Positions 39,716-52,692 of a stretch of DNA of 64,000 bases are shown here, piece after piece. The notes beneath the pieces were generated by a model, which was not told the DNA's origin, made no database searches, and saw nothing but the letters and a program-made list of their open reading frames with translations. The stretch comes from Rahnella variigena (lineage in GTDB: Bacteria; Pseudomonadota; Gammaproteobacteria; Enterobacterales; Enterobacteriaceae): positions 62,001-126,000 of the forward strand of contig NZ_NSDJ01000002.1 in assembly GCF_003610915.1 (NCBI RefSeq). Reading direction: 5' to 3'. Each line of letters begins with the position of its first letter. Within the stretch, counting starts at the first letter, position 1. Both the position numbers and the translations under genes were made by a program.

Positions 39716-42136
39716 TTAGAAATCAACATTGACGCCCAGCTGGAAGCTGCGACCTGGCATCACGGCCAGTGCCTTGTTGTATTCATCCTGATTAGTGGTA
39801 TCAGTCAGAGTACGGCTGCTCAGGTAATCCCAGTATTTGCGGTCGGTGATGTTGTAAACACCACCGCTGAGTTTCACGTTCTTCGCGACTTTCCAGTACG
39901 CCGTTGCATCAACCATACCGTAGCCCGGTACGTTCATGTATTCGGTGGTGGAACCCGTGATTGGCGTACCGGCGTTGGTGTAGCTCTGACGGTTTGTCGC
40001 TTCGGCTTTTTTACCTTTGACGAAAGTCGCGGTCAGCGCAGTACCGTACACGCCGGATGGATCATCCCACGCCACGCCAGCGACAAATTTCATTGGCGGC
40101 ACGCTGTCGAGATCCACATACTTGTCGCCATCGTAGCTGGATTTCGATTCACCTTTGGCATAACCCAGTGCGAAGGTGGTGCTCAGACCGTCAACGCTGC
40201 TGAACCAGGTACCGTAGTTAATTTTGGTGCTCAGATCGCCACCATAGATAAACGCTTCATCGCGGTTTTCGGCCTGATAAATCGTATAAATATTGGAGGG
40301 CACATTGGTGAACATGCCCGGGTTGGCAGCACGGCTGTAGCGGGTGTTGGCAATAAAGTTTTTGTAGGTGTTGTAGAAAACGGAAGTCTTGAAGGTTACA
40401 CCTTCAGTCGCTTCACCTTTCATACCCCATTCGAAGTTATTGCTGGTCTCGGTTTTCAAATCCGTGTTGCCGATCAGCGCGTATTGCTGAGAACCGGCAT
40501 AAGAAGAACCGAGGTTCCAGGAACCGTAAAGCTGGCTGGCATCCGGGAATTGCGCACCACGACGATATTGCAGGTAAGTCATCAGCTTAGGCGTGATGTC
40601 ATAGGTGAACGCCAGGGACGGCAGAAATTGCGTATCGGAATTGGCTTTGCCATATAGGGTAGAAACCTGGCCTTCAGAGACGGTGCTGTTGGACAAGTCA
40701 GACAGATCTTTCGCTTTGGTGTTCTGATACGCCACACGCACAGCAGGCACGATGGAGAAGTCATGGCCATCAAGGTCAAACTTCATGGTGTCCTGCAGGA
40801 AGCCGCCGAGAATATAAGAACGGCTGTTCGCTTCCGGCTGCATGATAGTGGTGTAAACGCTTTGCTCCGGGCTTTCACGGAACGGACGTTCAGTGTTGGA
40901 CATACGACCGTTGATACCGGCGCTCAGCTCATGACGACCCAGCGTTTTCAGCCAGCTGGTTTCCCCGCCGAAAGTGTTGACGTCATAGTTGGAATAGACG
41001 TTCATCATCTGCTTACTGGCGTTCGGCATGTAGGTATTGTCGTGCGCCTGCGTGTACTGGTAATACACTTTCGAAACAATAGCATCGACGTAATCGTTGA
41101 ACGGTGTCCATTCGTCTTTCAGCGTCGCGCCCCAGCGGCGGGTGTTACTTTGCTGCTGTGCGGTGCCGAGAATGGCGCTGCCTGAGCTGTTCCACGCATC
41201 GTAATGGGTATGGTTTACTTTTTCGTAATAATCGAGCGTACCGGTGACTTTATGTTCGTCATTTGGCTGCCAGATAACGGATGTCATGACTGCGTCGGAG
41301 TGCCAGTTAGCCGGATACGCATCGTGCGTTCCGCTGTTATTGCTGGTTTCCTGGCCGTCGCGGCGGCTGATGGCGATCAGACCACGCAGGGTTTCATCAC
41401 CTGCGGCGGCGGTGATGCCGTTGTGCCAGGAGCGGTCGGAAGAATCATAATCAGACTGGTAACCGAAATAGGTTTCCTTGCCCGGACGCAGATAATCATC
41501 GGCAGATTTTGGCAGGAAGGAAACGGCACCGCCGATTGAGGTGTTGGCGCGATCAGCGGAGGTGGCGCCGGATTCGATATCTACCTGGCCGTAAATGTAA
41601 GGATCGATGTAATCACGGCCAATACCGGAGGTGCCCAGACCCGCGCGGCTTGCGTAGCTGCGGCCGGTGGCGCTTGGCTGTGGAATGCCGTCGACATCGA
41701 TGCCGACGCGGTTGCTTTCCAGACCACGGATGTTATAGCCGGTATAACCGTTACGGTCGAAGCCGCTTTTGCCGTTGCCGGAACCGCCGCTGGAGCCGGT
41801 TGCGGTGATCAGGGGCTCATAACGCATGATAGTGCCGAAATCATTGCCGCCTTTTTGCTGCATTTCTGCTGCGGTGATAGTGGTTTTCGAGCCCGGTTTT
41901 TTATCCGGTATCGTTTCGGTAACCGTCATCACTTCTTCATTGTTCTGCGCCAGATCCTGCGCAGTACGCACCACCGGTTTTTTCCTGATGGCTTCAGAAG
42001 CTGGCGTTTTATTGGCTGCCAGATCGGTGGTGTCTTTAACCGCTTGTGCTGCATTTACGTTAAAGGTGGTGGTGAGAATCGTCCCCATGAAAATGACGTT
42101 TTTCACCAAACCCTGCTGTGTAAAGGATTTGAACAT
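39716..42136 (-). CDS. TonB-dependent heme/hemoglobin-type receptor
   Basis: An 806-residue outer-membrane receptor. Signal peptide ends near NVNAAQA. A TonB-box-like MTVTET follows at ~70. Plug: NDFGTIMRYEPLITATG, GYNIRGLESNRVGIDVDGIPQP and VDIESGATSADRANTSIGGAVSFLPKSADDYL, which places it in the hemoglobin/heme/transferrin receptor group (HemR/HasR-like) rather than siderophore receptors. The barrel ends QLGVNVDF. It is monocistronic with Fur-like sites upstream. No hemophore or heme ABC genes are adjacent; chuWXY for heme breakdown is 8 kb away. Confidence 0.87.
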   Translation of the reverse strand: MFKSFTQQGLVKNVIFMGTILTTTFNVNAAQAVKDTTDLAANKTPASEAIRKKPVVRTAQDLAQNNEEVMTVTETIPDKKPGSKTTITAAEMQQKGGNDFGTIMRYEPLITATGSSGGSGNGKSGFDRNGYTGYNIRGLESNRVGIDVDGIPQPSATGRSYASRAGLGTSGIGRDYIDPYIYGQVDIESGATSADRANTSIGGAVSFLPKSADDYLRPGKETYFGYQSDYDSSDRSWHNGITAAAGDETLRGLIAISRRDGQETSNNSGTHDAYPANWHSDAVMTSVIWQPNDEHKVTGTLDYYEKVNHTHYDAWNSSGSAILGTAQQQSNTRRWGATLKDEWTPFNDYVDAIVSKVYYQYTQAHDNTYMPNASKQMMNVYSNYDVNTFGGETSWLKTLGRHELSAGINGRMSNTERPFRESPEQSVYTTIMQPEANSRSYILGGFLQDTMKFDLDGHDFSIVPAVRVAYQNTKAKDLSDLSNSTVSEGQVSTLYGKANSDTQFLPSLAFTYDITPKLMTYLQYRRGAQFPDASQLYGSWNLGSSYAGSQQYALIGNTDLKTETSNNFEWGMKGEATEGVTFKTSVFYNTYKNFIANTRYSRAANPGMFTNVPSNIYTIYQAENRDEAFIYGGDLSTKINYGTWFSSVDGLSTTFALGYAKGESKSSYDGDKYVDLDSVPPMKFVAGVAWDDPSGVYGTALTATFVKGKKAEATNRQSYTNAGTPITGSTTEYMNVPGYGMVDATAYWKVAKNVKLSGGVYNITDRKYWDYLSSRTLTDTTNQDEYNKALAVMPGRSFQLGVNVDF

Positions 42137-42298
42137 TTGTTTTTAGCCCTGCACTATTTTTTAAAAGTTCTGCTCGCATTTACTGCCTTTCGACAAATCA
42201 GACGCGCTGGTCATCTGCTTTCAATTCTTCCGTAAAAAGCCCTTGTCCTTATAAAATATGGGTTTATTTGACGTCCTTACCCACTTCGGCTTGGTGCG

Positions 42299-42329
42299 AA
42301 TGATAATGATACTGAGAATTGTTATCAAC
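42299..42329 (-). promoter_or_regulatory. Fur-box cluster upstream of the heme-type receptor
   Basis: AATGATAATGATACT and TGAGAATTGTTATCA overlap-tile at 42299-42329, matching the GATAAT-hexamer array of Fur sites, 165-195 bases upstream of the receptor start. The region 42137-42504 contains no gene. The same sites could also act on the rightward yqjH-like gene. Confidence 0.75.
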
Positions 42330-42463
42330 AAATTGATAAATAAAAATGGGCTTCTTAACGAAATCTTTGCAATGTGTGGCTCAGAATGAACTACCGCGAG
42401 ATCAAAAGTGCGGGGGATGATGCCTGTGTCCTTACGTTTTTCAGGGTTGCGGAAAATATTCCT

Positions 42464-42475
42464 AAGATATATCTT
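42464..42475. promoter_or_regulatory. Palindrome AAGATATATCTT ahead of yqjH-like gene
   Basis: A perfect 12-bp palindrome 33 bases before the yqjH-like ATG. Position and AT-rich form suit a PadR-family operator, and a PadR-type regulator (YqjI-like) is encoded directly downstream. Confidence 0.55.
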
Positions 42476-42507
42476 TCGTTCAACCTTACTTAAAAAGAGA
42501 AAACGTG

Positions 42508-43320
42508 ATGACTCAACATCGCAACGAAACCCCTGCCGTAAACTTGCCTGTCCGCGTCAAAAACGACCTGGTTTTCCGTCATATCACCGTCAAAAGCAGC
42601 GAAAACGTGGCTGGCTGTTTTCAGCGTATCGTGTTGAACGGCGACGATCTGAAAGGTTTTAACTCGCGTGGTTTTGATGACCACATCAAACTGTTTTTCC
42701 CGGCAAATCCCGGTGATGTGATCACGCCGCCGACCGCGACCGACGAAGGCATTGTCTGGGGCGAAGGGCCGCGTCCGCTTAACCGCGAATACACGCCGCT
42801 GCATTTCGATGCACAAGCCAACGAACTGACGCTGGATTTCTATCTTCACGATGGCGGTGTCGCCAGTGAATGGGCGGCTGGCGCGAAGCCGGGCGATAAA
42901 CTGATCATCGGCGGACCGCGCGGTTCACTGATTATCCCGACCACTTACGCATGGCAGTTGTATGTCTGCGATGAAACCGGTCTTCCGGCGGTGAAGCGCC
43001 GTTTGCGCGAGCTGAAACAGCCCGCGTCTGCCGCGAAAGTGACCGTGCTGGTCAAAGTGAAAGATGTCAGTTGCGTTAGCTACTTAGACGATGAAAAAGA
43101 GTTCGACATCGAATGGGTTGTCAGTGAAGAACAAAACGGTTATCAGGAAGATGACGCGGCAGTTAAAAAACTGAAAAGCATTTCTTTGCCGGAAAGTGAT
43201 TACTACATCTGGGCGACCGGCGAGGGGAAATTTGTTAAAGGGCTGAATGATTACTTCGTCGAAAATCGCGGACTGGACGCCAATCTGGTGCGTTGTGTCG
43301 CTTACTGGCACAACAAGTAA
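42508..43320 (+). CDS. yqjH: Siderophore-interacting protein / ferric-chelate reductase (YqjH/ViuB family)
   Basis: A 270-residue FAD- and NADPH-binding protein that reduces iron in siderophores in the cytoplasm. Seen: KGFNSRGFDDHIKLFFPA (FAD binding), REYTPLHFD (the RxYT motif), GGVASEWAAGAKPGDKLIIGGPRGS, and the C-terminal YYIWATGEGKFVKGLNDYF. ATG 42508 is preferred to GTG 42505. The next gene, a PadR regulator, begins just after its stop. Both a Fur cluster and a possible PadR operator lie upstream. Confidence 0.9.
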   Translation: MTQHRNETPAVNLPVRVKNDLVFRHITVKSSENVAGCFQRIVLNGDDLKGFNSRGFDDHIKLFFPANPGDVITPPTATDEGIVWGEGPRPLNREYTPLHFDAQANELTLDFYLHDGGVASEWAAGAKPGDKLIIGGPRGSLIIPTTYAWQLYVCDETGLPAVKRRLRELKQPASAAKVTVLVKVKDVSCVSYLDDEKEFDIEWVVSEEQNGYQEDDAAVKKLKSISLPESDYYIWATGEGKFVKGLNDYFVENRGLDANLVRCVAYWHNK

Positions 43321-43322
43321 CG

Positions 43323-43805
43323 ATGATGAATCATAAACACCGTCGCGAAAGGATGTTTGAAACGGGTGATATCCGTCTGCTGATGCTGCATTTTTTACAG
43401 CAACGTTCCGCTCACGGTTATGAACTGATCAAAGCCATCGAAGAACTCTCCAAAGGCGAATACACGCCGAGCGCCAGTATCATTTATCCGAACCTGACCT
43501 TCCTGGAAGAACAGGGTCTGGTAACGGCAAAACAGGAAGAGGGCGGCAAGAAACAATATTCGATTACGCCGGAAGGCACGCAGTCGCTGGCAGAGCAGGG
43601 TGATTTGCTCGGTTCAGTGACGGAAAAACTGCATTCACTGGCGATTTTATCGAATAACCGCAGTATTCCGGAAATGCAGCGGGCGATTAACAATATGCGC
43701 ATGGCGCTCAATTTGCGGCTGGCGAAAGGTCCGATCGGGCAGGAAACGCTGTATAAAATCACCGATGCGTTAGACCGCGCGACCAAAGAAATTGAGCGCA
43801 GCTAA
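43323..43805 (+). CDS. yqjI: PadR-family regulator, YqjI-like without the metal-rich N-terminus
   Basis: A 160-residue regulator starting at ATG 43323 or 43326 (a longer GTG start would read from inside yqjH). The PadR winged helix is ERMFETGDIRLLMLHFLQQRSAHGYELIKAIEELSKGEYTPSASIIYPNLTFLEEQGLV. C-terminal dimerisation helices include MQRAINNMRMALNLRL. E. coli YqjI has a long His/Cys-rich nickel-binding N-terminus, while here only MNHKHRRE remains. It sits downstream of yqjH in the same direction, whereas in E. coli the two are divergent. Confidence 0.88.
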   Translation: MMNHKHRRERMFETGDIRLLMLHFLQQRSAHGYELIKAIEELSKGEYTPSASIIYPNLTFLEEQGLVTAKQEEGGKKQYSITPEGTQSLAEQGDLLGSVTEKLHSLAILSNNRSIPEMQRAINNMRMALNLRLAKGPIGQETLYKITDALDRATKEIERS

Positions 43806-43822
43806 ACGGATTATCAAAAACT

Positions 43823-43848
43823 ATAAAGCCTCCGACCGGAGGCTTTAT
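43823..43848. terminator. Bidirectional hairpin between the padR-type gene and map
   Basis: A perfect 11-bp stem (ATAAAGCCTCC, loop gacc, GGAGGCTTTAT) between convergent genes. The T tracts are short (TTTAT on either strand), so termination may be moderate. Confidence 0.75.
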
Positions 43849-43872
43849 ACGTTCAGGAAATATCACGGAAAA

Positions 43873-44673
43873 TCAGTTCTCTTCAGGCCATGGGGTCAAT
43901 ATTTCATAGCCATCTTTTGTCACCGCAATCATATGTTCCCATTGTGCGGACAACGAATGATCTTTAGTCACCACCGTCCAGCCGTCGGGCAGCACTTTAT
44001 TCTGCTTTTTACCGGCGTTCAGCATCGGTTCGATGGTGAATAACATGCCTTCCTGCAACACCAGTCCGCGGCCTTTTTCACCGTAATGCAGCACCTGCGG
44101 ATCTTCGTGATAACCCATGCCGATGCCGTGACCGCAGTATTCTTCTACGATGGAAAACCCTTCGCGCTTCGCTACCGAGGCAATGGCATGACCCACATCA
44201 CCGAGGGTTGCGCCGGGACGCACCACTTCGATACCGGCCATCATTGCTTCAAAGGTGGTATCCACCAGACGGCGAGCCATAATGCTCGGCTCACCGGCGT
44301 AATACATGCGGCTGGTGTCGCCGTACCAGCCATCTTTGATCAGCGCCACGTCGATGTTCACGATATCGCCTTTCTTCAGCGCTTTATCGGAAGGAATACC
44401 GTGGCAAATCACATGGTTGACGGAGGTGCAGGTGGTTTTCTGATAGCCGTGATAACCGATATTTGCCGGGATCGCCTGTAATTCGTTGACGATAAAATCG
44501 TGGCAGATGCGGTCCAGTTCATTGGTCGTGACACCCGGTACCACATAAGGCGTGATCATATGCAGCACCCGCGCTGCCAGTTTACCGGCGATACGCGCTT
44601 TATCGATGCCTTCCGGCGTTTTGACCATGCGGTTATTATTGACGAAATATCGGCTGTCTAAACCATTATTCAT
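43873..44673 (-). CDS. map: Methionine aminopeptidase type I (accessory copy)
   Basis: ATG 44673 has a strong AGGAAGG site and gives 266 residues. Metal ligands of type I Map are visible: VNIDVALIKDGWYGDTSRMY (two Asp), GHGIGMGYHEDPQVLHYG (His), MLFTIEPMLN (Glu) and WEHMIAVT (Glu). It removes initiator Met. The essential Map normally lies beside rpsB, so this is probably a second copy. Its start overlaps the end of the ParD-like gene by eight bases, so the two are translationally coupled. The last ten residues (YEILTPWPEEN) contain no extra domain. Confidence 0.92.
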   Translation of the reverse strand: MNNGLDSRYFVNNNRMVKTPEGIDKARIAGKLAARVLHMITPYVVPGVTTNELDRICHDFIVNELQAIPANIGYHGYQKTTCTSVNHVICHGIPSDKALKKGDIVNIDVALIKDGWYGDTSRMYYAGEPSIMARRLVDTTFEAMMAGIEVVRPGATLGDVGHAIASVAKREGFSIVEEYCGHGIGMGYHEDPQVLHYGEKGRGLVLQEGMLFTIEPMLNAGKKQNKVLPDGWTVVTKDHSLSAQWEHMIAVTKDGYEILTPWPEEN

Positions 44674-44920
44674 TGCTTGCCTTCCTGTGTGTGCCGCTGA
44701 CATTTAACAGCGTGCGGATACTTCCGGTGTTTTCTTCAGATTCCAAGCTGCAACGCACCAGCAATTGCGAAATCTCGCTGTGCGTCATGTCCGGATGAGT
44801 TTCCATCAGCATACCGATTTTCATCCAGTGCTCGGCCTGCGCGTTGATGGAACGCGTATACGCCAGACTGGCGATGCGCAGATTCTCATGCATCAGTTCG
44901 GAGATTTTAATGATACCCAT
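44666..44920 (-). CDS. ParD-like family protein
   Basis: An 84-residue protein: MGIIKISELMHENLRIASLAYTRSINAQAEHWMKIGMLMETHPDMTHSEISQLL. This matches the ParD-like family (PF11903), small ribbon-helix-helix-like proteins named for similarity to ParD antitoxins. AGGA lies 7 bases ahead of the ATG. No ParE toxin is adjacent; the coupled downstream gene is a methionine aminopeptidase. An inverted repeat in the promoter suggests autoregulation. Confidence 0.82.
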   Translation of the reverse strand: MGIIKISELMHENLRIASLAYTRSINAQAEHWMKIGMLMETHPDMTHSEISQLLVRCSLESEENTGSIRTLLNVSGTHRKASNE

Positions 44921-44933
44921 CGGGCGTCCTCAT

Positions 44934-44965
44934 TAGTATACGAATCATATATGTTTTATATACTA
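44934..44965. promoter_or_regulatory. Inverted repeat TAGTATA...TATACTA at the ParD-like promoter
   Basis: Seven-base perfect arms at 44934-44940 and 44959-44965, 14 bases upstream of the ParD-like start, in AT-rich DNA with a TATAAT-like stretch. It is a candidate operator for the ribbon-helix-helix-like product. Confidence 0.5.
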
Positions 44966-44996
44966 CGCAGGTCGCTGTCAATTTTCCAATAAAAAA

Positions 44997-45019
44997 GCCT
45001 CCGCTGAACAGACGGAGGC
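44997..45019 (-). terminator. Terminator of the MXKDX protein operon
   Basis: Minus strand: GCCTCCG, nine-base loop, CGGAGGC, then TTTTTTATT. It lies 32 bases past the stop at 45051. Confidence 0.85.
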
Positions 45020-45050
45020 GTTTTCGCTGCATAGCCGGGTTTAGCGGCGT

Positions 45051-45332
45051 TTACTGGGCAGAGGTGTTTTTTTTCATGGCATCTTTCGACATGTTGTCTT
45101 TGGACATTGAGTCTTTAGACATGCTGTCTTTCTTCATATGATCTTTCGACATGCAGTCTTTGCCCATGCTGTCTTTAGCCATGGAATCTTTACTCATGCT
45201 GTCTTTTTTCATGCAGTCTTTCGACATATGGCCCATGGTATCTTTCTTCGCCATCGCGTCAGCAGCATAAGTGGTGCTCACAGCGCCCATCATCAGACAA
45301 GCAGACATCATCATTACGGTTAACTTTTTCAT
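45051..45332 (-). CDS. Methionine-rich MXKDX-repeat periplasmic protein (MrpX-like)
   Basis: ATG 45332 has an AAGGA site 7 bases upstream; the longer frame to 45449 is not needed. The 93-residue product has a signal peptide (MKKLTVMMMSACLMMGAVSTTYA) and a mature part built of about eleven five-residue repeats of form M-x-K-D-x (MSKDC, MKKDS, MSKDS, MAKDS, MGKDC...), with 13 Met in ~70 residues. It is encoded after a YedY-type molybdoenzyme and a cytochrome b, as for MrpX, a methionine-rich scavenger of hypochlorite described in Azospira suillum. A sacrificial methionine pool recycled by the neighbouring reductase is the inferred role. Confidence 0.85.
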   Translation of the reverse strand: MKKLTVMMMSACLMMGAVSTTYAADAMAKKDTMGHMSKDCMKKDSMSKDSMAKDSMGKDCMSKDHMKKDSMSKDSMSKDNMSKDAMKKNTSAQ

Positions 45333-45402
45333 GATAAATCCTTCTTTTAGGTTTTGAGATACAAAGGTTGTTGTGGACAGTGTTGATCCTTGAGGATCGT
45401 GT

Positions 45403-46206
45403 TCAGCTTCCGCCGAACCAGTTGTAGCCCTGATCTTCCCAGTAGCCACCAGTGAACTTGTTTGTTATTTCAATGACTTCAATATGCTTTGGATTCTTAT
45501 AGCCGAGTTTGGTCGGCATTCTGAGCTTCATCGGGAAGCCGTATTTTCGCGGTAAAATCTGGCCGTCATAAGTCAGCGCCAGCAGGGTTTGCGGATGCAG
45601 TGCCGTCGCCATATCAATGCTGGTGTAATACTGATCTGCGCATTTAAAACTGACGTATTCCGCCGTGAGATCGGCCCCGATCAGACGCAGAAAATCACCG
45701 AACGGCACGCCGCCCCATTTGCCAATCGCGCTCCAGCCTTCGACACAAATGTGACGAGTCACCTGGCTGACCTGCGCCATTTTGTACAGCGTTGGCAATG
45801 ACCATTCGCGTTTATCCAGCGCCAGACCGGCGATTTTCAGGCGATAAGCGTTACCGTCTACTTCCGGTGCGTCGTCTTCGGCGTAAAAAGCGTTAAACGG
45901 AAACGGACGTGTGATCATCGATTCGGCGTACACCGGCGCCAGGCGCGTCGAGCCAAACAGCCAGCCTTGCACGCGGTCGTTGAATCCAGAAATCTTACCG
46001 AGCGCGTTTTCGACGCTGGCGTTATCGCTGATATCGCAACCGGTGAGCATCGCGACGCCGCCGAGCGTCAGCCCGCGTTGCAGGAACAGGCGGCGGGAGG
46101 GCGCATCCAGTTCGCGGATAATCTGTTTTTTCGCTTCCTGTAAAATCGCTTCGCTGTCGGAAGGGCTGAAAATCTGGCTGATACTTTTTTTGAGGATGTT
46201 TTTCAT
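45403..46206 (-). CDS. YedY-type molybdopterin oxidoreductase, Tat lipoprotein
   Basis: A 267-residue sulfite-oxidase-fold enzyme. Twin Arg38-Arg39 (SRRLFLQRGLTLGGVAMLTGC) starts a Tat signal, and LTGC forms a lipobox with Cys57, so it is probably membrane-anchored in the periplasm. The molybdenum ligand is Cys154 in RHICVEGWSAIGKWGG, followed by VPFGDFLRLIG. KYGFPMKLRMPTKLGYKNPKHI fits the YedY/MsrP group. It follows the cytochrome gene by 10 bases. By analogy with MsrP/YedY1 it may reduce methionine sulfoxide in periplasmic proteins using electrons from the cytochrome. Confidence 0.88.
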   Translation of the reverse strand: MKNILKKSISQIFSPSDSEAILQEAKKQIIRELDAPSRRLFLQRGLTLGGVAMLTGCDISDNASVENALGKISGFNDRVQGWLFGSTRLAPVYAESMITRPFPFNAFYAEDDAPEVDGNAYRLKIAGLALDKREWSLPTLYKMAQVSQVTRHICVEGWSAIGKWGGVPFGDFLRLIGADLTAEYVSFKCADQYYTSIDMATALHPQTLLALTYDGQILPRKYGFPMKLRMPTKLGYKNPKHIEVIEITNKFTGGYWEDQGYNWFGGS

Positions 46207-46216
46207 CAGGTCTTCC

Positions 46217-46873
46217 TTAACGTCCGCGGATCATGGCAATCAGGGTTTTCGGCACCAGCGCCACCATCACGATATGCAGCACCACAAATCCCACCAGTGA
46301 AGCCATCGCCAGAAAATGCACATAACGCGCCGTATCAAAGCCGCCCATCAGTTCGCGCAGCAGCGGAAATTGCACGGATTTCCACACCACCAGCCCGGAA
46401 AGCACCAGCACAATGCCGTCAAACATCACGAACACATACGCCGCACGCTGAACCATATTGTAGTGACGCAAATCGTCGTGTTTCAGCTTGCCGCGCACGG
46501 CAGCCAGTAAATCGTTGAAGATGCCGCGCGGCGTCAGAGGCCAGAATTTTCGTTTCATGCGGCCGGTAAAAATGTTCATCATCAGATAAAACAGGCCGTT
46601 AAATCCAAACAGCCACATACCGGCGAAATGCCACTGAATGCCGCCACCGAGCCAGCCACCAAGTGTGACCGTTGGCGGGAAATCAAAATTAAACAGCGGT
46701 GAGGCGTTATAAATCTGCCAGCCGCTGGTGACCATAATCAGCACCGCCAGCGCGTTCAGCCAGTGCGTCAGACGAAGCCATAACGGATGCACGATGGCGG
46801 GTTTTTGTTTTGACGGATGCACGATGGCGGGTTTTTGTTTTGCCTGTCCGGGTAAATCCGTGTGTATTGTCAT
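46217..46873 (-). CDS. Cytochrome b561-type membrane electron donor (YedZ1-like)
   Basis: A 218-residue membrane protein with four core helices and heme-type His: LRLTHWLNALAVLIMVTSGW, IQWHFAGMWLFGFNGLFYLM, YVFVMFDGIVLVLSGLVVW, and YVHFLAMASLVGFVVLHIVMV. It fits the b561 / Ni-Fe-hydrogenase cytochrome b family, unlike the MsrQ partner of E. coli MsrP. It probably passes quinol electrons to the molybdoenzyme. The N-terminus holds a duplicated motif (KQKPAIVHP twice). The divergent gap 46874-47026 to the response regulator holds the promoters of both units. Confidence 0.87.
   Translation of the reverse strand: MTIHTDLPGQAKQKPAIVHPSKQKPAIVHPLWLRLTHWLNALAVLIMVTSGWQIYNASPLFNFDFPPTVTLGGWLGGGIQWHFAGMWLFGFNGLFYLMMNIFTGRMKRKFWPLTPRGIFNDLLAAVRGKLKHDDLRHYNMVQRAAYVFVMFDGIVLVLSGLVVWKSVQFPLLRELMGGFDTARYVHFLAMASLVGFVVLHIVMVALVPKTLIAMIRGR
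46784..46842 (-). repeat. 30-bp in-frame tandem duplication in the cytochrome gene
   Basis: A 29-base stretch starting CGGATGCACGATGGCGG at 46784 recurs at 46814, a 30-base period, duplicating ten codons (KQKPAIVHPS). The copies are identical, so the duplication is recent or maintained. Confidence 0.9.
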
Positions 46874-47026
46874 GATGAAGTCCGGCTGTCCGTCCTGTGA
46901 TGAAGCGAGTATTGAGCGGATTTGTTCCCCGATACCTCACGCAAAGTTAAATAAAATGTGATAACTCGCGGGCGGTTGCTTGTGTAGACTCAAACCATTG
47001 GGGAACACCACGTTTTGGGATGACAT

Positions 47027-47749
47027 ATGGATAAGACGAAGAAGATCCTGATCGTTGAAGATGACGGGGATATCGCAGAACTGCTCAGCCTGCATCTGCG
47101 TGATGAAGGTTATGAAATTACGCACGCCGCAGACGGTAATCTGGGCGTGGCGCATCTGGAGAAAGGCGGCTGGGACGCGCTGATCCTCGACCTGATGCTG
47201 CCGGGTGTAGACGGTCTGGAAATCTGCCGCCGTGCGCGCAACATGACGCGTTATACGCCGATCATTATTATCAGCGCACGTTCCAGCGAAGTGCATCGGG
47301 TGCTCGGGCTGGAACTGGGCGCGGATGATTATCTGGCAAAACCTTTCTCCATGCTGGAACTGGTGGCGCGGGTCAAGGCGCTGTTCCGGCGGCAGGAAGC
47401 GATGAGTCGCAATATGAAAATGGATGCCGGTACCCTGAGTTTTTCCGGGCTGGTCATCGACCCGATTGCTCGCGAAGTGATGCTCAGTCAGCAGCCCGTT
47501 GAACTGACGCCGCGAGAGTTTGATTTGCTGTATTTCTTTGCCAAAAATCCCGGCAAAGTGTTCTCGCGCCTCAGCCTGCTCAATCAGGTCTGGGGCTACG
47601 AACACGAAGGGTATGAACATACGGTGAACACCCATATCAACCGTCTGCGCATCAAGATAGAAGCTAATCCGGCCGAGCCGGAACGTATTCTGACCGTGTG
47701 GGGAAAAGGCTACAAATTCGTGTCTTCCGCTGAAGACGCGCAAGGGTAA
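47027..47749 (+). CDS. OmpR-family response regulator
   Basis: A 240-residue regulator with receiver domain (ILIVEDDGDIAELL, phospho-acceptor Asp55 in LILDLMLPG, Lys in YLAKPFS) and a winged-helix DNA-binding domain (LTPREFDLLYFFAKNPGKVFSRLSLLNQVWGY...HTVNTHINRLRIKIE...ILTVWGKGYKF). The kinase starts 3 bases after its stop. It is divergent from the cytochrome/molybdoenzyme/Met-rich protein operon, the likely target. Confidence 0.93.
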   Translation: MDKTKKILIVEDDGDIAELLSLHLRDEGYEITHAADGNLGVAHLEKGGWDALILDLMLPGVDGLEICRRARNMTRYTPIIIISARSSEVHRVLGLELGADDYLAKPFSMLELVARVKALFRRQEAMSRNMKMDAGTLSFSGLVIDPIAREVMLSQQPVELTPREFDLLYFFAKNPGKVFSRLSLLNQVWGYEHEGYEHTVNTHINRLRIKIEANPAEPERILTVWGKGYKFVSSAEDAQG

Positions 47750-47752
47750 ATC

Positions 47753-49219
47753 ATGAAAAATCTCACGCTGGCGCAAAGACTGACTCTGGTATTTACGGTG
47801 TTACTGATCGCCTGCTGCGCGCTTTCCGGCTATATGCAGGTGCGCTCCAGCAACCAGTACAGCCAGTCGGTGATCCAGCGGCTGTCGGCCAACCTGGCGA
47901 CGCAGATAGCGGCGAATAATCCGCTGCTCAGCGAGGGTGACTGGGATCCGAAAGTGGTCCATACCTTGTTCGATCAGCTGATGGCGGTGAATCCCAGCGT
48001 TGAGGTTTATCTGCTGGATAAAGACGGCAATATTGTCGGCAATGCTGCTCCTGCTGGCAGGCTGCAACAGAAACGCATCGATCTGGCACCGGTGAACGCG
48101 CTGATTCATGGTGCGAAAATGCCGGTGTATGGCGATAATCCGCGCGACCCGCATACTCCGCAGGTCTTCAGTGTCGCGCCGTTGCGGGTCAACGGAGAAA
48201 CTCAGGGTTACGTGTACATCGTTCTGCTCGGGGATGCTTACACCGCGCTGACCAGTGACGCGCAATATCAGTCGGCGATATCTCTGGCGCTGCGCTCGAT
48301 GGGGCTGGTGGCGCTGTTTGGTTTGCTGGCCGGTGCGCTGGCGTTCCGCTGGGTGACGCGTCCGGTGCGAAAACTCACGGCGCAAATTGCCGAACTTGAT
48401 ACCGGCGGCATGGACGCCATTCAGGCGCTGGCGAAAACGGAGACACCGGCCGGTGCCGCCCGCGATGAAGTCACGCAACTGCAACAGGCATTTGTCGCGC
48501 TGGCAAAACGTATCGATCAGCAATGGCAAAGCCTGATGGTGCAGGATCAGCAACGGCGTGAATTTATCGCCAATATTTCCCACGATCTGCGTACGCCGCT
48601 GACGTCGTTGCACGGTTATCTGGAAACGCTGTCGGTGAAATCAGACCATCTGAGCAATGAAGATCGCCAGCGTTATCTGAATATCGCTCTGACGCAGAGT
48701 AAAAAAGTCGGCCGTCTGGCGCAGGAATTATTCGAACTGGCGCGGCTGGAATACGGCGTGGTGAAACCGCAGAAAGAACCGTTCTCGCTGAGTGAATTAG
48801 TGCAGGATGTTTTCCAGAAATTCGAGCTGGCAACCGAAACCCGCGGGCAAAAATTACTGGCCGATATCACGCCGGGGATCCCGCTGGTGAATGCTGATTT
48901 AGGCATGATTGAACGGGTGCTGACCAACTTGCTGGATAACGCCATCCGCTTCACGCCGGAAGGGGGCACGATAGAAATTAAACTGTGGCCGCACGAAGGG
49001 CAGGTGATGGTACAACTGAAGGATAGCGGACCGGGCATTGCGCCGGAACTGAAAGACAGCCTGTTTGTACGTCCGTCGATACTCAGTACCAACAAACACC
49101 GCGCAGGCGGGCTGGGGCTGATGATTGTCCGCCGCATTCTGCAACTGCACGGCAGCGATATCCAGCTGATTGAACAGCCGAAACACGGCGCTTGTTTTCA
49201 ATTTTCAGTGCCGGTCTGA
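47753..49219 (+). CDS. Membrane sensor histidine kinase
   Basis: A 488-residue kinase. The first membrane segment is LTLVFTVLLIACCALSGYM, followed by a periplasmic domain of ~140 residues (30-170), a second segment ALRSMGLVALFGLLAGALAF, a HAMP domain (TRPVRKLTAQIAELDTGG), phospho-His277 in FIANISHDLRTPLTSLHGY and an ATPase domain (NLLDNAIRFTPEGG, LKDSGPGI, GGLGLMIVRRI). The stimulus is unknown; by context it may be oxidative or chlorine stress in the periplasm. Confidence 0.92.
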   Translation: MKNLTLAQRLTLVFTVLLIACCALSGYMQVRSSNQYSQSVIQRLSANLATQIAANNPLLSEGDWDPKVVHTLFDQLMAVNPSVEVYLLDKDGNIVGNAAPAGRLQQKRIDLAPVNALIHGAKMPVYGDNPRDPHTPQVFSVAPLRVNGETQGYVYIVLLGDAYTALTSDAQYQSAISLALRSMGLVALFGLLAGALAFRWVTRPVRKLTAQIAELDTGGMDAIQALAKTETPAGAARDEVTQLQQAFVALAKRIDQQWQSLMVQDQQRREFIANISHDLRTPLTSLHGYLETLSVKSDHLSNEDRQRYLNIALTQSKKVGRLAQELFELARLEYGVVKPQKEPFSLSELVQDVFQKFELATETRGQKLLADITPGIPLVNADLGMIERVLTNLLDNAIRFTPEGGTIEIKLWPHEGQVMVQLKDSGPGIAPELKDSLFVRPSILSTNKHRAGGLGLMIVRRILQLHGSDIQLIEQPKHGACFQFSVPV

Positions 49220-49234
49220 ATCCTGATTATGTTT

Positions 49235-49264
49235 TTGTAACAGCATGAAAGAGTGAACTATAAT
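49235..49264 (+). promoter_or_regulatory. Promoter of the guanidine riboswitch-sugE unit
   Basis: TTGTAA at 49235-49240 and a perfect TATAAT at 49259-49264, spacer 18. It lies within a long inverted repeat (arms around CAGCATGAAAGAGTG and CACTCTTCATGCTG, 49242-49282), so the promoter is embedded in a potential hairpin. Predicted start near 49271 places both riboswitch hairpins in the leader. Confidence 0.65.
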
Positions 49265-49283
49265 CTTTCACTCTTCATGCTGA

Positions 49284-49328
49284 CTGGACGACCAGAGACT
49301 CAGCCATACTAAGCAGGGACGACCTTGC
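49284..49328 (+). ncRNA. Guanidine-II (mini-ykkC) riboswitch
   Basis: Two small hairpins with ACGA tetraloops, the hallmark of the class: CTGG-ACGA-CCAG at 49284-49295 and GCAGGG-ACGA-CCTTGC at 49313-49328, separated by a 17-base linker. The AGGA ribosome site (49337-49340) and sugE ATG (49347) follow. Guanidinium binding at the paired loops is known in the class to free the ribosome site of exporter genes. Confidence 0.92.
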
Positions 49329-49346
49329 GCGTTTTCAGGAACTATC

Positions 49347-49667
49347 ATGGCCTGGTTCTATCTGTTTCTTGCCGGTATTTTCGAAGTGGTCTGGTCGACC
49401 GCAATGAAAGAATCCCACGGTTTTACCCGCCTTATTCCCAGTATTCTCACGGTTTTCTTCATGATCCTCAGCGTCATTTTGCTGGCGATTTCGATGAAAA
49501 CGCTGCCGCTCGGCACGTCTTACACCGTCTGGGTCGGCATCGGCGCTATCGGTGCCTTCATTCTCGGCGTGGTGATGTTCGGCGAAAGCCTCAACCCGCT
49601 GCGGGTGATCGCCGTGCTGCTGATTTTCTCCGGCGTGGTTCTGCTAAAAGTGGCGACGAAAGATTAA
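49347..49667 (+). CDS. sugE: Guanidinium exporter Gdx/SugE (SMR family)
   Basis: A 106-residue four-helix small multidrug resistance protein. Glu13 in FLAGIFEVVWSTAMKES is the essential proton/substrate site, and the Gdx signature continues as KTLPLGTSYTVWVGIGAIGAFILGVVMFGESLNPLRV. Length is standard. The guanidine-II riboswitch in its leader confirms the guanidinium export role over general drug efflux. Confidence 0.96.
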   Translation: MAWFYLFLAGIFEVVWSTAMKESHGFTRLIPSILTVFFMILSVILLAISMKTLPLGTSYTVWVGIGAIGAFILGVVMFGESLNPLRVIAVLLIFSGVVLLKVATKD

Positions 49668-49688
49668 AGGCGGAAACGCTGATATGAC

Positions 49689-49718
49689 AAAGCCGCTCTG
49701 TACAAGGAGCGGCTTTTT
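49689..49718 (+). terminator. Terminator after sugE
   Basis: AAAGCCGCTC, eight-base loop, GAGCGGCTTT followed by further T, 22 bases past the sugE stop. Confidence 0.9.
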
Positions 49719-49769
49719 GTTATCTGATAACTTCAGCAAATCATTTGTACAGCACTGCGGGCATCTTCC

Positions 49770-50393
49770 TCAGAACCTTTCCCCTTCCAGCGTCGAATCA
49801 CACAACGCGAAAATCTTACCCCAGCCTTCGCCGGAGGCCAGCAGTTGCTGAATGTGCAGCGCGACATCGCTGCGGCGCACGCGGCCATGGGCTTCGGTTT
49901 GAATCAGATGGGCTTTGCCTGTCGCTTCGCCATTCATCAGGCCGCCGGGCCGTAAGATGCACCCGTCCAGCGCGCTGGTTTGCAGCCAGCTTTCCGCCAG
50001 TGATTTTTCGCGTACGGCCTGACCGAAGGCCTGTTTTGCGCGGGCAGACAGCGTCGGCCAGCTGTCGCCGCAGCCAATTGAGGTGACCAGTAACATTTGG
50101 CGGATACCGGTTTGCTCCGCAGTATCAATGATCAACCGGTTGGCGGTGTAATCGGCGAGTTTACCGCCCAGCGTTGACACGATTTGTGCCCCGCTGCCTG
50201 CCATTTGGCAGGCCTGTAAAACGTCGGCGGGATTAAGCGCATCGCCCTCAATGACGGTCACACCACGTGCGCGCAAGGTTTGCGCCTGTTCGGCGTTGCG
50301 GATAAGCGCGACCACCGGACGTTCCTGCGCCGTGAGCGCCACCAGTTCAGCGCCGACGCCGCTGCCTGCGCCAAAAATCAGCAAAGTGTTCAA
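49770..50393 (-). CDS. chuY: NAD(P)-binding protein ChuY (heme utilisation)
   Basis: A 207-residue Rossmann protein (LIFGAGSGVGAELVALTAQ at the N-terminus; GGKLADYTANRLIIDTAEQTGIRQMLLVTSIGCGDS). Length equals E. coli ChuY, described as acting on the tetrapyrrole product of ChuW. It starts with TTG 50393, three bases after the chuX stop, with GGGAG eight bases upstream. Last gene of chuWXY. Confidence 0.85.
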   Translation of the reverse strand: MNTLLIFGAGSGVGAELVALTAQERPVVALIRNAEQAQTLRARGVTVIEGDALNPADVLQACQMAGSGAQIVSTLGGKLADYTANRLIIDTAEQTGIRQMLLVTSIGCGDSWPTLSARAKQAFGQAVREKSLAESWLQTSALDGCILRPGGLMNGEATGKAHLIQTEAHGRVRRSDVALHIQQLLASGEGWGKIFALCDSTLEGERF

Positions 50394-50395
50394 GA

Positions 50396-50902
50396 TTATT
50401 TCTCCCTCTCAGCCAGAGTGGCGGGAAGGGCACGAAATGCATTCAGCTGATCGGTCAGTAATTCACGATGGCTGTCGCGCCCCACGAAAACCTTGAGCAT
50501 GGCATAACCGGAAGCGTTTAAAAACCAGACACTTGCTGTGCTCATTCCCATAAACGGACGTTCAACCAGTGCAATGTGCTGACAGTGCGTCGCGCGGATA
50601 TGCCCGCTCATGCCCCGTTTACCGCGCAGGTTAAAGTAACCGTGACGATGCGTGCCGGAGGGCAATTCGCCATGGAATTCGAGGATCAGATCGTCATTAT
50701 TGACCAGCGTCGTCACTTCACCCCATCCGGTGATGTTGTCCCATACGGCATCGAAATGGGTTCCGGCAAACAGATAACTTCCCGGCAGGTTCTGAATCAC
50801 TTCCAGCGGCGTGATGTGGTATTCGCGGGCGATATCTTCGACGGTGCCTTCTGGCTGCGTGGCGAGAAAGTCGATCAGGGACTGAAGTTTATCCGTTGGC
50901 AT
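50396..50902 (-). CDS. chuX: Heme utilisation protein ChuX/HutX
   Basis: A 168-residue heme-binding carrier. PEGTVEDIAREYHITPLEVIQNLPGS and FHGELPSGTHRHGYFNLRGKRGMSGHIRATHCQHIALVERPFMGM are typical of the HutX/ChuX fold. Its start overlaps the chuW end by 14 bases, indicating coupled translation. It passes heme to the degrading enzymes. Confidence 0.92.
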   Translation of the reverse strand: MPTDKLQSLIDFLATQPEGTVEDIAREYHITPLEVIQNLPGSYLFAGTHFDAVWDNITGWGEVTTLVNNDDLILEFHGELPSGTHRHGYFNLRGKRGMSGHIRATHCQHIALVERPFMGMSTASVWFLNASGYAMLKVFVGRDSHRELLTDQLNAFRALPATLAEREK

Positions 50903-52214
50903 GAGTGGTATTCCGTAAAGTCAGTTGTGGGATCAATGTCTGTAAGGCCTGCAACATATTGCTGGCCCAGAATCGTCCGGAGGGAGTGAGACTGAAGCGC
51001 GGGCCTTCGTTGTGCATCAGGCCGCATTGTTGCCATTGCTGCAACAGGGGTTCGAGCGGGAAAGGGTTTTCGATGATACGGCTAAGATCATAACGGCCTG
51101 CTTCGATGCCGCCCTGTAAATCCAGCCGCCAGCGGTGCTCACCGGTCGTCGCTGCGGTCATCATCATGATCGGTTTTTGTCCGGCGTCCATTTGCTGGTA
51201 ATACATCTCCAGGCTGCGCGCCGTCATATAGGATTGCCCACCGAGATTGCCGCCTGCGCCGCTGCCAAAAGCCAGACAGTCGGCTCCTTTTTTGATCAGC
51301 AAATTGTACAGATTGCGTTCGCGAGTGGTGCGCGCCCAGTGACTGTTGCTTATCTGATGCCAGCCGTTGCGCGCCAGAAAAGCTTCACCCTCGAGGTAAA
51401 AATCACGACGCTGAGTGACATCCGGCAGCGACACGCGTTTATTTTCCACCGCTTTGCCCAGCGGTGTGGAAGGCAGCAGATTCAGGGCGTAAAGATCGAC
51501 GCCATCAAGCGGTAAATCACGGACGATTTGCAAATCTTCCCGCCAGCTTTTAGTTGTCTGTTCCGGTAATCCGAACATCAGGTCGCAGACCACCGCAGCG
51601 CGATCACGCTCCCCGAGTTTACGCAAAAACTGTATCGCTTCTTCACGGCTGGCGCGGCGTCCCATGCGCTGGCGGACACGGGTATCAAACGTCTGGATAC
51701 CAATCGAAAAACGGTTTGCGCCCGCCTCCAGACAGGCGTCGATGCGCTCGTCATCGAAATTAAGGATCCGTCCCTCGACGGTGATTTCGCAATCCGGTGC
51801 CAGCGGCAAACAGCGACGCAGCGTGGTGATGATCCGGTGCAGCTGTTTTGCGCTGAGTGCCGTCGGTGTGCCGCCACCAAAATAGACAGCGTGGACAGGC
51901 GCGGACTGATGCAGCGGCGAAGCGGCTTCCTGTTCGATCTCCCGGATCAGATAATCACAGTATTGTTCTGTGGCCTCTGCTTCCAGTTTGTTCTGGTAGA
52001 ACCCGCAAAACTTACAGTGCGTCGCACAAAAGGGGATATGCAGATAGACCAGACGCTTATTGGCCGGAAGCGGACGCTGGCACAGCGCCTGCCACTGAGC
52101 GGGGATCTCCTGCGGCGGAACCGGCTGCTGTGGCCGCCAGGGCATCACTGCCCAGCGGTCAGGGAACGGCAGTCCGTCTGCGGCAGCGTAAAAACGCGTG
52201 AGGTCTAAGCTCAT
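50889..52214 (-). CDS. chuW: Heme-degrading radical SAM protein ChuW/HutW (anaerobilin synthase)
   Basis: A 441-residue HemN-like radical SAM enzyme that opens the heme ring without oxygen, releasing iron and a linear tetrapyrrole. The cluster motif is CATHCKFCGF (CX3CX2C), and HAVYFGGGTPTALSAKQL and RFSIGIQTFD follow as in HemN-like proteins. First gene of chuWXY with a perfect-looking Fur box 48-66 bases upstream of its ATG. Confidence 0.93.
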   Translation of the reverse strand: MSLDLTRFYAAADGLPFPDRWAVMPWRPQQPVPPQEIPAQWQALCQRPLPANKRLVYLHIPFCATHCKFCGFYQNKLEAEATEQYCDYLIREIEQEAASPLHQSAPVHAVYFGGGTPTALSAKQLHRIITTLRRCLPLAPDCEITVEGRILNFDDERIDACLEAGANRFSIGIQTFDTRVRQRMGRRASREEAIQFLRKLGERDRAAVVCDLMFGLPEQTTKSWREDLQIVRDLPLDGVDLYALNLLPSTPLGKAVENKRVSLPDVTQRRDFYLEGEAFLARNGWHQISNSHWARTTRERNLYNLLIKKGADCLAFGSGAGGNLGGQSYMTARSLEMYYQQMDAGQKPIMMMTAATTGEHRWRLDLQGGIEAGRYDLSRIIENPFPLEPLLQQWQQCGLMHNEGPRFSLTPSGRFWASNMLQALQTLIPQLTLRNTTHANG

Positions 52215-52261
52215 TGAGTTTGTCTTCTCCTAAAAACAATCATTCATTCGCCGGCATTAAA

Positions 52262-52280
52262 CGATAATGATTATCATTCG
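52262..52280 (-). promoter_or_regulatory. Fur box upstream of chuW
   Basis: CGATAATGATTATCATTCG is a near-consensus 19-bp Fur site, placed upstream of chuWXY. Iron-replete repression is expected. Confidence 0.9.
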
Positions 52281-52351
52281 ATCAAACCCAAAACGCATTT
52301 GTGATGATCTGTATCAAGTTTGGAAAAGTGAGGGAGGGTCCGAGGGATCAG

Positions 52352-52371
52352 TTCAGCGCTTCGCCTTATCC
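52352..52371. repeat. Left copy of 20-bp direct repeat (SDR 3' end fragment)
   Basis: TTCAGCGCTTCGCCTTATCC recurs exactly at 54590-54609, where it is the last codons and stop of the SDR gene. Similarity continues rightwards (TGATGGTGATATTTGTA against TGACGGCGATATCCGTA after a 10-base gap), so this is a decayed copy of the SDR 3' end. The remainder of 52215-52692 is AT-rich and has no gene. Confidence 0.8.
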
Positions 52372-52692
52372 TGATGGTGATATTTGTACAATACTGGACC
52401 AGGTCCAAATGAAAATTTTTCTTAACTGAACCTTTCCCGATGCGTAATGAATTTTAAAAATAGGGCTGCAGACATTAAACTTTAAGGTATTTCTTATTTC
52501 TGATAACAAAAATATCGTATTTAGGCCAGGGTTACGTAGCCAATAGCAGAAATTGAGAGGAGTATATAAATATTAAGGTTATTATTGTTTCAAAATATTT
52601 ATATGAGGGATTCATCAGGTATGTGAAAGTGATCTATGTGTCAGTTTTGTTTCATGATAAAATCAGGAGCACAAATTTTTAAATGATATAGG

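Follow-up and report, generated by a model that had tools for sequence, protein, structure and literature searches.

This work concerns a five-gene locus at positions 45051-49219 of a 64,000-nt stretch of the Rahnella variigena genome (C2:62001-126000 of 5.5 Mb in two contigs); "the window" refers to this whole stretch, and all positions are given in its numbering. The window lies on the smaller contig, of 742,735 bases. Its minus strand carries an operon that encodes, in order, a cytochrome, a molybdenum (Mo) protein, and a methionine-rich protein with M-x-K-D-x repeats (MxKDx protein), and a response regulator and a histidine kinase are encoded divergently on the plus strand. This is the divergent kinase-regulator/cytochrome b-Mo-Met-rich order of the OrhK/OrhR module of uropathogenic Escherichia coli (UPEC). 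The features are as follows:

45051..45332, minus strand: secreted MxKDx-repeat Met-rich protein, MrpX/BcrX/c3568-like (93 aa; TIGR02953)
45403..46206, minus strand: lipoprotein molybdoenzyme exported by the twin-arginine translocation (Tat) route, YedY1/c3567-like, with the MsrP/sulfite-oxidase fold (267 aa; PF00174)
46217..46873, minus strand: b561-type cytochrome, YedZ1/c3566-like, putative electron donor (PF01292)
46937..46961, no strand assigned: OrhR-type operator in the divergent promoter region, TCAC(A/G)-N15-(C/T)GTGA
47027..47749, plus strand: OmpR-type response regulator, OrhR orthologue (Response_reg and Trans_reg_C; Asp55 by eye)
47753..49219, plus strand: sensor histidine kinase, OrhK orthologue (HAMP, HisKA, and HATPase_c; His277)
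44997..45019, minus strand: intrinsic terminator-like site directly 3' of the MxKDx gene (8-bp stem followed by T6)

Profile searches bore out the gene assignments in an earlier note made from the DNA letters. The divergent regulator and kinase are an OmpR-type pair, as the note had proposed, with the domains listed above; the phospho-acceptor H277 is invariant in the kinase alignment, and D55 was read by eye in the translated regulator. The proposed b561-type cytochrome (PF01292, 86.3 bits against a cut-off of 30.1) and Tat lipoprotein molybdoenzyme with Cys154 (PF00174, 97.1 bits against 24) were both recovered. In the latter, the twin arginines R38R39, the lipobox Cys57, and Cys154 are invariant in 28/28 aligned sequences, the window's included; the lipobox, which the note had offered as a distinguishing feature of this version, is family-wide, as are the twin arginines. 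On the MsrP equivalog model the Mo protein scored 67.1 bits and did not reach the cut-off of 207, and its partner belongs to PF01292 and not to the MsrQ-type Ferric_reduct family. A low-confidence structure model of the Mo protein (predicted local distance difference test [pLDDT], 61.5) matched best 1xdy/1xdq, which we take to be E. coli YedY/MsrP, and may be read as support for the fold family only. The cytochrome gene of the window contains an in-frame 30-bp tandem duplication in its N-terminal region (about 46783-46844; 10 residues, KQKPAIVHPS), present in this copy only among the 10 Rahnella loci that could be compared (4 loci missed the search motif).

The MxKDx protein scored 79.6 bits on TIGR02953 (penta_MxKDx), exceeding the curated cut-off of 41. 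The note's description of a 93-residue secreted M-x-K-D-x protein with 13 methionines was correct as to gene and repeat, although the 13 count only the 70 residues past the signal peptide, and the total is 19. Met-Met spacing is exactly 5 in 10 of 12 intervals, and Tandem Repeats Finder resolved the gene into 9.7 copies of 15 bp with 68% matches. The mature protein (70 residues) has two Cys and two His, with zero F, W, Y, I, L, or V. Across 80 MxKDx ORFs (open reading frames) from fetched loci, some with uncertain starts and the longest of 226 aa, the medians were 92 aa in length, 13 Met after residue 24, a Met fraction of 0.195, and an aromatic count of 0; the mature part lacked Cys in 53/80 and His in 30/80. 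Judged from these sequences, methionine is the residue conserved in MxKDx proteins. A requirement for the Cys residues of the repeat protein was considered and rejected, given their absence from those 53 ORFs. In public records, such Met-rich "sink" proteins are mostly labelled MXKDX repeat or hypothetical.

The operator, TCACATTTTATTTAACTTTGCGTGA when read toward the cytochrome gene, is upstream of both divergent genes, 63 bp from the start of the cytochrome and 65 bp from that of the regulator. Its form, TCACA-N15-CGTGA, is 1 of 10 bases off the published TCACA-N15-TGTGA, which is described in UPEC as a potential site just upstream of the c3566 -35 box, within a promoter fragment bound by OrhR in an electrophoretic mobility shift assay (PMC8550376). 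The window operator is the only zero-mismatch site in the 5.5-Mb genome under every pattern used, and one further 1-mismatch match sits inside a coding ORF. A wide range of operator targets in Rahnella was considered and rejected, as a loose scan gave five other matches (three mismatches each), the same number as the reversed control.

Relatives of the operon were collected by scanning named genomes with the Mo-protein alignment, which yielded at least 567 confirmed relatives, and the analysis covered the 80 best. Directly downstream and on the same strand, 70 of these loci carry an MxKDx ORF, defined by four or more M-x-K/R-D units; a cytochrome accompanies 78, the other two being cut short at contig ends. 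Where no such downstream ORF was found (10 loci), it lies upstream in L119, L122, and L126 (same strand) and in L123 (opposite strand), L060 is cut by the contig end, and five have none under this definition. A divergent OrhR-like regulator (>300 bits) is present in 34 loci and a kinase in 33. By genus name, we assign 14 of the 34 loci with a two-component system (TCS) to Burkholderiales and 19 to Enterobacterales, and the remaining one, under the label Chryseobacterium, is presumed to be a mislabelled enterobacterium; the earlier note's "enterobacterial version" thus stands as to its two-component sensor but not as to a restriction to enterobacteria. The site TCAC-N17-GTGA occurs ≤350 bp from the cytochrome start in 33/34 TCS loci and 24/46 non-TCS loci (two of the 46 could not be scored, the cytochrome being missing). 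Apart from one Citrobacter and one Pandoraea locus, the 24 are from Pseudomonas, whose 22 loci in this set all have the operator and no adjacent TCS. Over the 961 kb that the 80 loci make up, the site matches 65 times; the 57 matches near a cytochrome start (33 distinct) give the profile AGTTATCACatTTaATTTAAcTTTnCGTGAGG.

Another 22 of the 80 loci lack both an adjacent TCS and the operator. In 8 of these, a gene for an extracytoplasmic function (ECF) sigma factor lies upstream, confirmed by Pfam in three, with NrsF (239 bits) adjoining a fourth. None of the examined loci had an adjacent OrhR together with this ECF gene. The effector operon is thus found under either regulator type. Two plasmid copies, L046 of Klebsiella variicola (6.4-kb plasmid) and L047 of Yersinia ruckeri, have neither an adjacent TCS nor an operator near the cytochrome; the latter is flanked by IS6 transposase genes, which suggests mobility.

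Within the genus, the Mo protein is 95-100% identical in 14/14 Rahnella genomes (our own included), and all 14 loci have an MxKDx ORF (83-100 aa) and a TCAC-N17-GTGA site. At 85.7-89.6% DNA identity, 12 plasmids of Rahnella, 0.5-0.7 Mb in size, carry the locus; their records label its genes, under varying names, as pentapeptide MXKDX repeat protein, molybdopterin-dependent oxidoreductase, cytochrome b/b6, response regulator, and histidine kinase. Because of these matches, we infer that the contig carrying the window is a megaplasmid. A second Mo protein, 57% identical (54% end to end), and a cytochrome are encoded on the strain's own chromosome (L035:6207-10582; G000:C1 about 3.810-3.815 Mb) with their own divergent TCS, and a DUF5666-like protein (22.1 bits, cut-off 27) takes the place of the MxKDx protein. 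This paralogue was rejected as a copy of the same module: it is without MxKDx protein and operator, and its regulator is 37% identical. In L062 of Serratia, a paralogue-type module has its DUF and TCS genes immediately next to the MxKDx module. An MsrP-like gene with an MsrQ-like neighbour (names by resemblance) is found elsewhere in the Rahnella genome.

The regulator itself was then followed beyond the operon. Of the 22 genomes searched, 17 belonged to loci among the 22 from Pseudomonas and two were Rahnella, with one each from Citrobacter, Edwardsiella, and Serratia; every genome gave exactly one match at E ≤ 1e-60, 71-100% identical. In 17/17 Pseudomonas genomes, this single OrhR orthologue adjoins genes for the methionine sulfoxide (MetO) reductases MsrB and MsrA. 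The operator separates the regulator from MsrB, and in 8/17 genomes the group also includes a recognised DsbD-like gene. For L206, the one example checked with Pfam and NCBIfam, MsrB scored 173.9 bits (cut-off 113) with a TAT signal over the NCBIfam cut-off, MsrA scored 168.8 (cut-off 108) with a signal peptide read by eye, and the third gene matched DsbD_TM/Redoxin/Thioredoxin_10, with DsbD_TM just under its own cut-off. The Citrobacter OrhR pair adjoins MsrPQ with an operator (MsrP, 499.6 bits against 207), and a second operator is found at that genome's MxKDx operon. In Edwardsiella, no recognised target was seen beside OrhR.

Two wider surveys covered the neighbours of the regulator. Across the phylum, an OrhR-type regulator (E ≤ 1e-85) was found in 20/398 genomes; in the neighbourhoods (19 fetched, plus the window), the regulator is accompanied by cytochrome-Mo-MxKDx in 7, by MsrB/DsbD with or without a recognised MsrA in 9, and by no recognised target in 4. 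In one of these genomes, G393, nothing recognised lies beside the TCS and the sole operator match in the genome precedes MsrB-DsbD elsewhere; in G446, MsrA stands directly behind the MxKDx gene. Across the family, the regulator is present in 29/149 genomes (six also among the 20 phylum genomes), beside cytochrome-Mo-MxKDx in 15, MsrA-DsbD-MsrB in 1, a lone Met-rich secreted protein in 3, and no recognised target in 10. The lone proteins are divergent behind an operator in G469, G505, and G563, with only the G469 site fitting the one-mismatch pattern; they are encoded as follows, with no reductase recognised beside them:

L279:4438-4704, lone Met-rich secreted protein behind operator
L282:4276-4566, lone Met-rich secreted protein behind operator
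L293:4445-4723, lone Met-rich secreted protein behind operator

The three have 10-22% Met, zero Cys past the signal peptide, and a looser repeat, scoring 22-37 bits on TIGR02953 (cut-off 41).

Operator specificity was gauged by scanning 21 OrhR-bearing genomes, picked from the surveyed sets, with TCACRNNTNNTTNAASNYNNSGTGA at ≤1 mismatch, using the reversed pattern as control. The scan gave 27 matches against 4 for the control; 24 of the 27 lie at methionine-repair operons or at a regulator adjoining one, and three do not. Four of the 21 genomes (G014, G369, G077, and G459) have no TCACRNNTNNTTNAASNYNNSGTGA match, G459 having the looser TCAC-N17-GTGA beside the regulator. The 149 family genomes gave 37 operator matches. 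Of these, 19 adjoin an OrhR gene; the other 18, being so near the 17 of the control, were counted as background. All 12 family genomes with a zero-mismatch site have OrhR.

The sensor half of the kinase was inspected over residues 1-200 in 66 kinases, some of them nearly identical. Within this range, the sole invariant Met or Cys is Met77 (66/66), which is again invariant in alignments of 30 and 28; its context, LFxxLMxxNPSVEVYLLD, contains further invariant residues. A structure model (pLDDT, 72.2; moderate confidence) places helix 66-79 ahead of five strands in the sensor, and a PDB search with the model was dominated by the catalytic half. In E. coli HprS, two Met of the periplasmic loop are held responsible for sensing (review, PMC10151825), and by analogy Met77 is a candidate oxidised residue, nothing firmer.

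Taken together, the locus is probably an OrhK/OrhR-controlled module for defence against methionine oxidation in the envelope. An oxidant reaching the periplasm would activate the kinase, perhaps through Met77 by analogy with HprS. The phosphorylated regulator would bind 46937-46961, as the UPEC relative suggests, and turn on the divergent operon. The MxKDx protein would serve as an unstructured methionine store, oxidised instead of other envelope proteins, and the membrane-anchored Mo enzyme, with electrons from the cytochrome, would reduce the sink's methionine sulfoxides and make the sink reusable. Because the same class of regulator and operator accompanies MetO reductases, a role in methionine oxidation is supported independently of composition. 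By gene content, four effector sets appear to travel with this regulator and operator class: cytochrome, Mo-reductase, and MxKDx protein; exported MsrB/MsrA; MsrPQ; and a lone Met-rich protein. With less assurance, although we still lean toward it, we propose that OrhK/OrhR governs a proteobacterial regulon against methionine oxidation in the envelope, which would have a conserved 25-bp operator and four interchangeable effector sets (MsrB/MsrA with or without DsbD-thioredoxin), act in cis or in trans, and sense via Met77.

Several observations weigh against these proposals. The function in Rahnella is deduced from genes, gene order, operator, conservation, and co-regulated relatives elsewhere. 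The UPEC work used tert-butyl hydroperoxide, and the passages of PMC8550376 drawn on here contain no resistance phenotype for the Met-rich peptide. MetO reductase activity of the Mo protein is an assignment from context, in view of its score of 67.1 against 207 on the MsrP model. Met77 may be structural, as F73, N80, P81, V83, E84, and Y86 are equally invariant. As for the operator, the TCS locus L069 lacks the strict form, and in G017, where MsrA-DsbD-MsrB follow the kinase, it lies at the regulator and not at MsrB. Finally, 10/29 family and 4/20 phylum genomes (two shared; G393 with one in trans) have no recognised target beside OrhR, and in G465 and G524 this holds even though an operator is present. 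Loci L276 and L289 have OrhR and a good operator without a recognised target; judged by eye, L276 continues with fimbrial-type genes and L289 with others.

Cu(I) binding is frequent among Met-rich periplasmic proteins, and the locus might instead defend against copper or silver, the Met-rich protein binding Cu(I)/Ag(I) via Met, Cys, and His and the TCS acting as a metal sensor of the CusRS/CopRS type. The two Cys and two His of the mature window protein would fit this idea, as would the similarity of the kinase to a heavy-metal kinase model (160.9 bits) and of the regulator to cztR_silR_copR (162 bits), but these scores are below the respective cut-offs of 292.55 and 279.2, and relatives often lack Cys (53/80) or His (30/80). 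In E. coli, periplasmic MetO repair has been tied to copper stress (PMC9302797); here, however, the ORFs of 42000-53000, inspected by eye, showed no recognisable gene for a metal pump or copper oxidase, and the 24 assigned operator matches lie at MsrAB, MsrPQ, and YedYZ1-type operons. We regard metal defence as very unlikely. Equally improbable, in our estimation, is a reductase and cytochrome acting on another S- or N-oxide or on sulfite, with the MxKDx protein as a general envelope stress protein like Spy or CpxP. The Mo protein does show weak similarity to sulfite dehydrogenases (SorA, 46.5 bits; 2ca3, 52.1 bits), the MxKDx protein matches Spy (16.4 bits against 174), and the lone relative in L293, the weakest of the three, matches Asr at 29.2 bits (cut-off 50), slightly above its TIGR02953 score, and CpxP at 24.9 (cut-off 238). 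Every such match is below its cut-off, though, and the co-regulated relatives include peptide-methionine sulfoxide reductases; a mature protein without F, W, Y, I, L, or V also seems ill-suited to be a folding chaperone.

A different question is which oxidant provides the signal. That it is peroxide or another oxidant and not hypochlorite, with all else as in the proposed methionine-oxidation defence and so not exclusive with it, is a tentative possibility of some weight. UPEC OrhK/OrhR and c3566/c3567 respond to, and protect against, tert-butyl hydroperoxide, with induction inside macrophages (PMC8550376). On the other side, hypochlorous acid (HOCl) is an inducer of the Brucella relatives that are under ECF control (PMC8315932), Azospira MrpX scavenges HOCl (as cited in PMC8550376 and PMC8315932), and HprSR, first reported with H2O2, is more efficiently activated by HOCl (review, PMC10151825).

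Around the locus, the terminator-like site (read 45019-44997) has the longest stem among 5 such sites in 44900-47100 (shuffles: mean, 2.7; standard deviation, 1.6), a promoter scan was uninformative (2 hits; shuffle mean, 2.1), and an Rfam scan of 44000-50000 gave zero matches. After the operon lie a ParD-like gene and, directly downstream of it, a type I methionine aminopeptidase gene, map (43873-44920), an order also seen in R. aceris pRAHAQ01. A SugE-like small multidrug resistance protein (49347-49667; 121.5 bits, cut-off 126) is encoded next to the kinase; the R. aceris counterparts are separated by two other genes. Genes for a TonB-type receptor (by eye) and a siderophore-interacting protein (39716-43320) form an iron-uptake group seemingly unrelated to the module.

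Among known systems, E. coli K-12 HprSR-MsrPQ likewise places a periplasmic Mo-type MetO reductase under a TCS with reported Met-based sensing, but the window regulator reached 150 of the 353 bits required by the HprR model, the MsrP score is 67 against 207, and the partner is of PF01292. Brucella melitensis BcrS/AbcS-bcrXQP combines an MXKDX repeat protein with an MsrPQ-like pair (PMC8315932); unlike the window, it is under ECF regulation, with the Met-rich gene at the opposite end of the operon. Azospira suillum MrpX-YedY1-YedZ1 (Melnyk 2015, as cited in later papers) resembles the window operon in the kinds of gene present, namely one for a secreted Met-rich peptide, one for a Mo protein, and one for a membrane cytochrome. 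Its control is by SigF/NrsF, an ECF sigma/anti-sigma pair, whereas the window has a TCS; ORFs beside the window operon, inspected by eye, include no sigma/anti-sigma gene.

The closest counterpart is UPEC CFT073 OrhK/OrhR (c3564-c3568), published in 2021 as a five-gene TCS arrangement whose authors call c3568 an MrpX homologue and place the phospho-acceptors at His278 and Asp55 (PMC8550376). The window has the same five genes, divergent order, and operator class; the earlier note was right about an MrpX/YedY1/YedZ1-like set under a TCS, though not about its novelty. Sequences were compared with two E. coli copies, that of the ATCC 25922 chromosome and one on a plasmid. Identities to the ATCC 25922 chromosomal copy, which carries TCACA-N15-TGTGA, are 66% (regulator), 62% (Mo protein), 49% (Met-rich protein), and 50% (part of the kinase); its cytochrome gene is annotated as frameshifted (L245:1124-1722). 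Those to the E. coli plasmid copy (L045) are 68%, 66%, 55%, and 52% in the same order, with 54% for the cytochrome, and a megablast-range search found no chromosomal copy of L045. The Rahnella copy is on a megaplasmid, unlike the chromosomal UPEC copy, and where the UPEC operon is co-transcribed with hlyCABD (PMC8550376), the window has the terminator-like site followed by the ParD-like and map genes. The words Pseudomonas, Klebsiella, and Enterobacter are not in the main text of PMC8550376, and a literature search of partial coverage, and so weak evidence of absence, gave no link of OrhK/OrhR to MsrAB or MsrPQ and no operator outside E. coli. The five-gene module is thus of a published type, and what may be new, perhaps also to specialists, is the genome-based picture of a regulon. 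The shared regulator and operator would place Met-rich sinks in methionine-oxidation defence and predict trans-regulated Pseudomonas targets, and the lone-sink loci, with no reductase recognised adjacent, would allow the effect of a sink to be separated from that of repair. If the regulon proposal is true, the UPEC hemolysin link would be a local offshoot of a repair regulon that is older, and OrhK/OrhR, described as a UPEC virulence regulator, gains a wider context in Rahnella, Serratia, Pseudomonas, and Variovorax.

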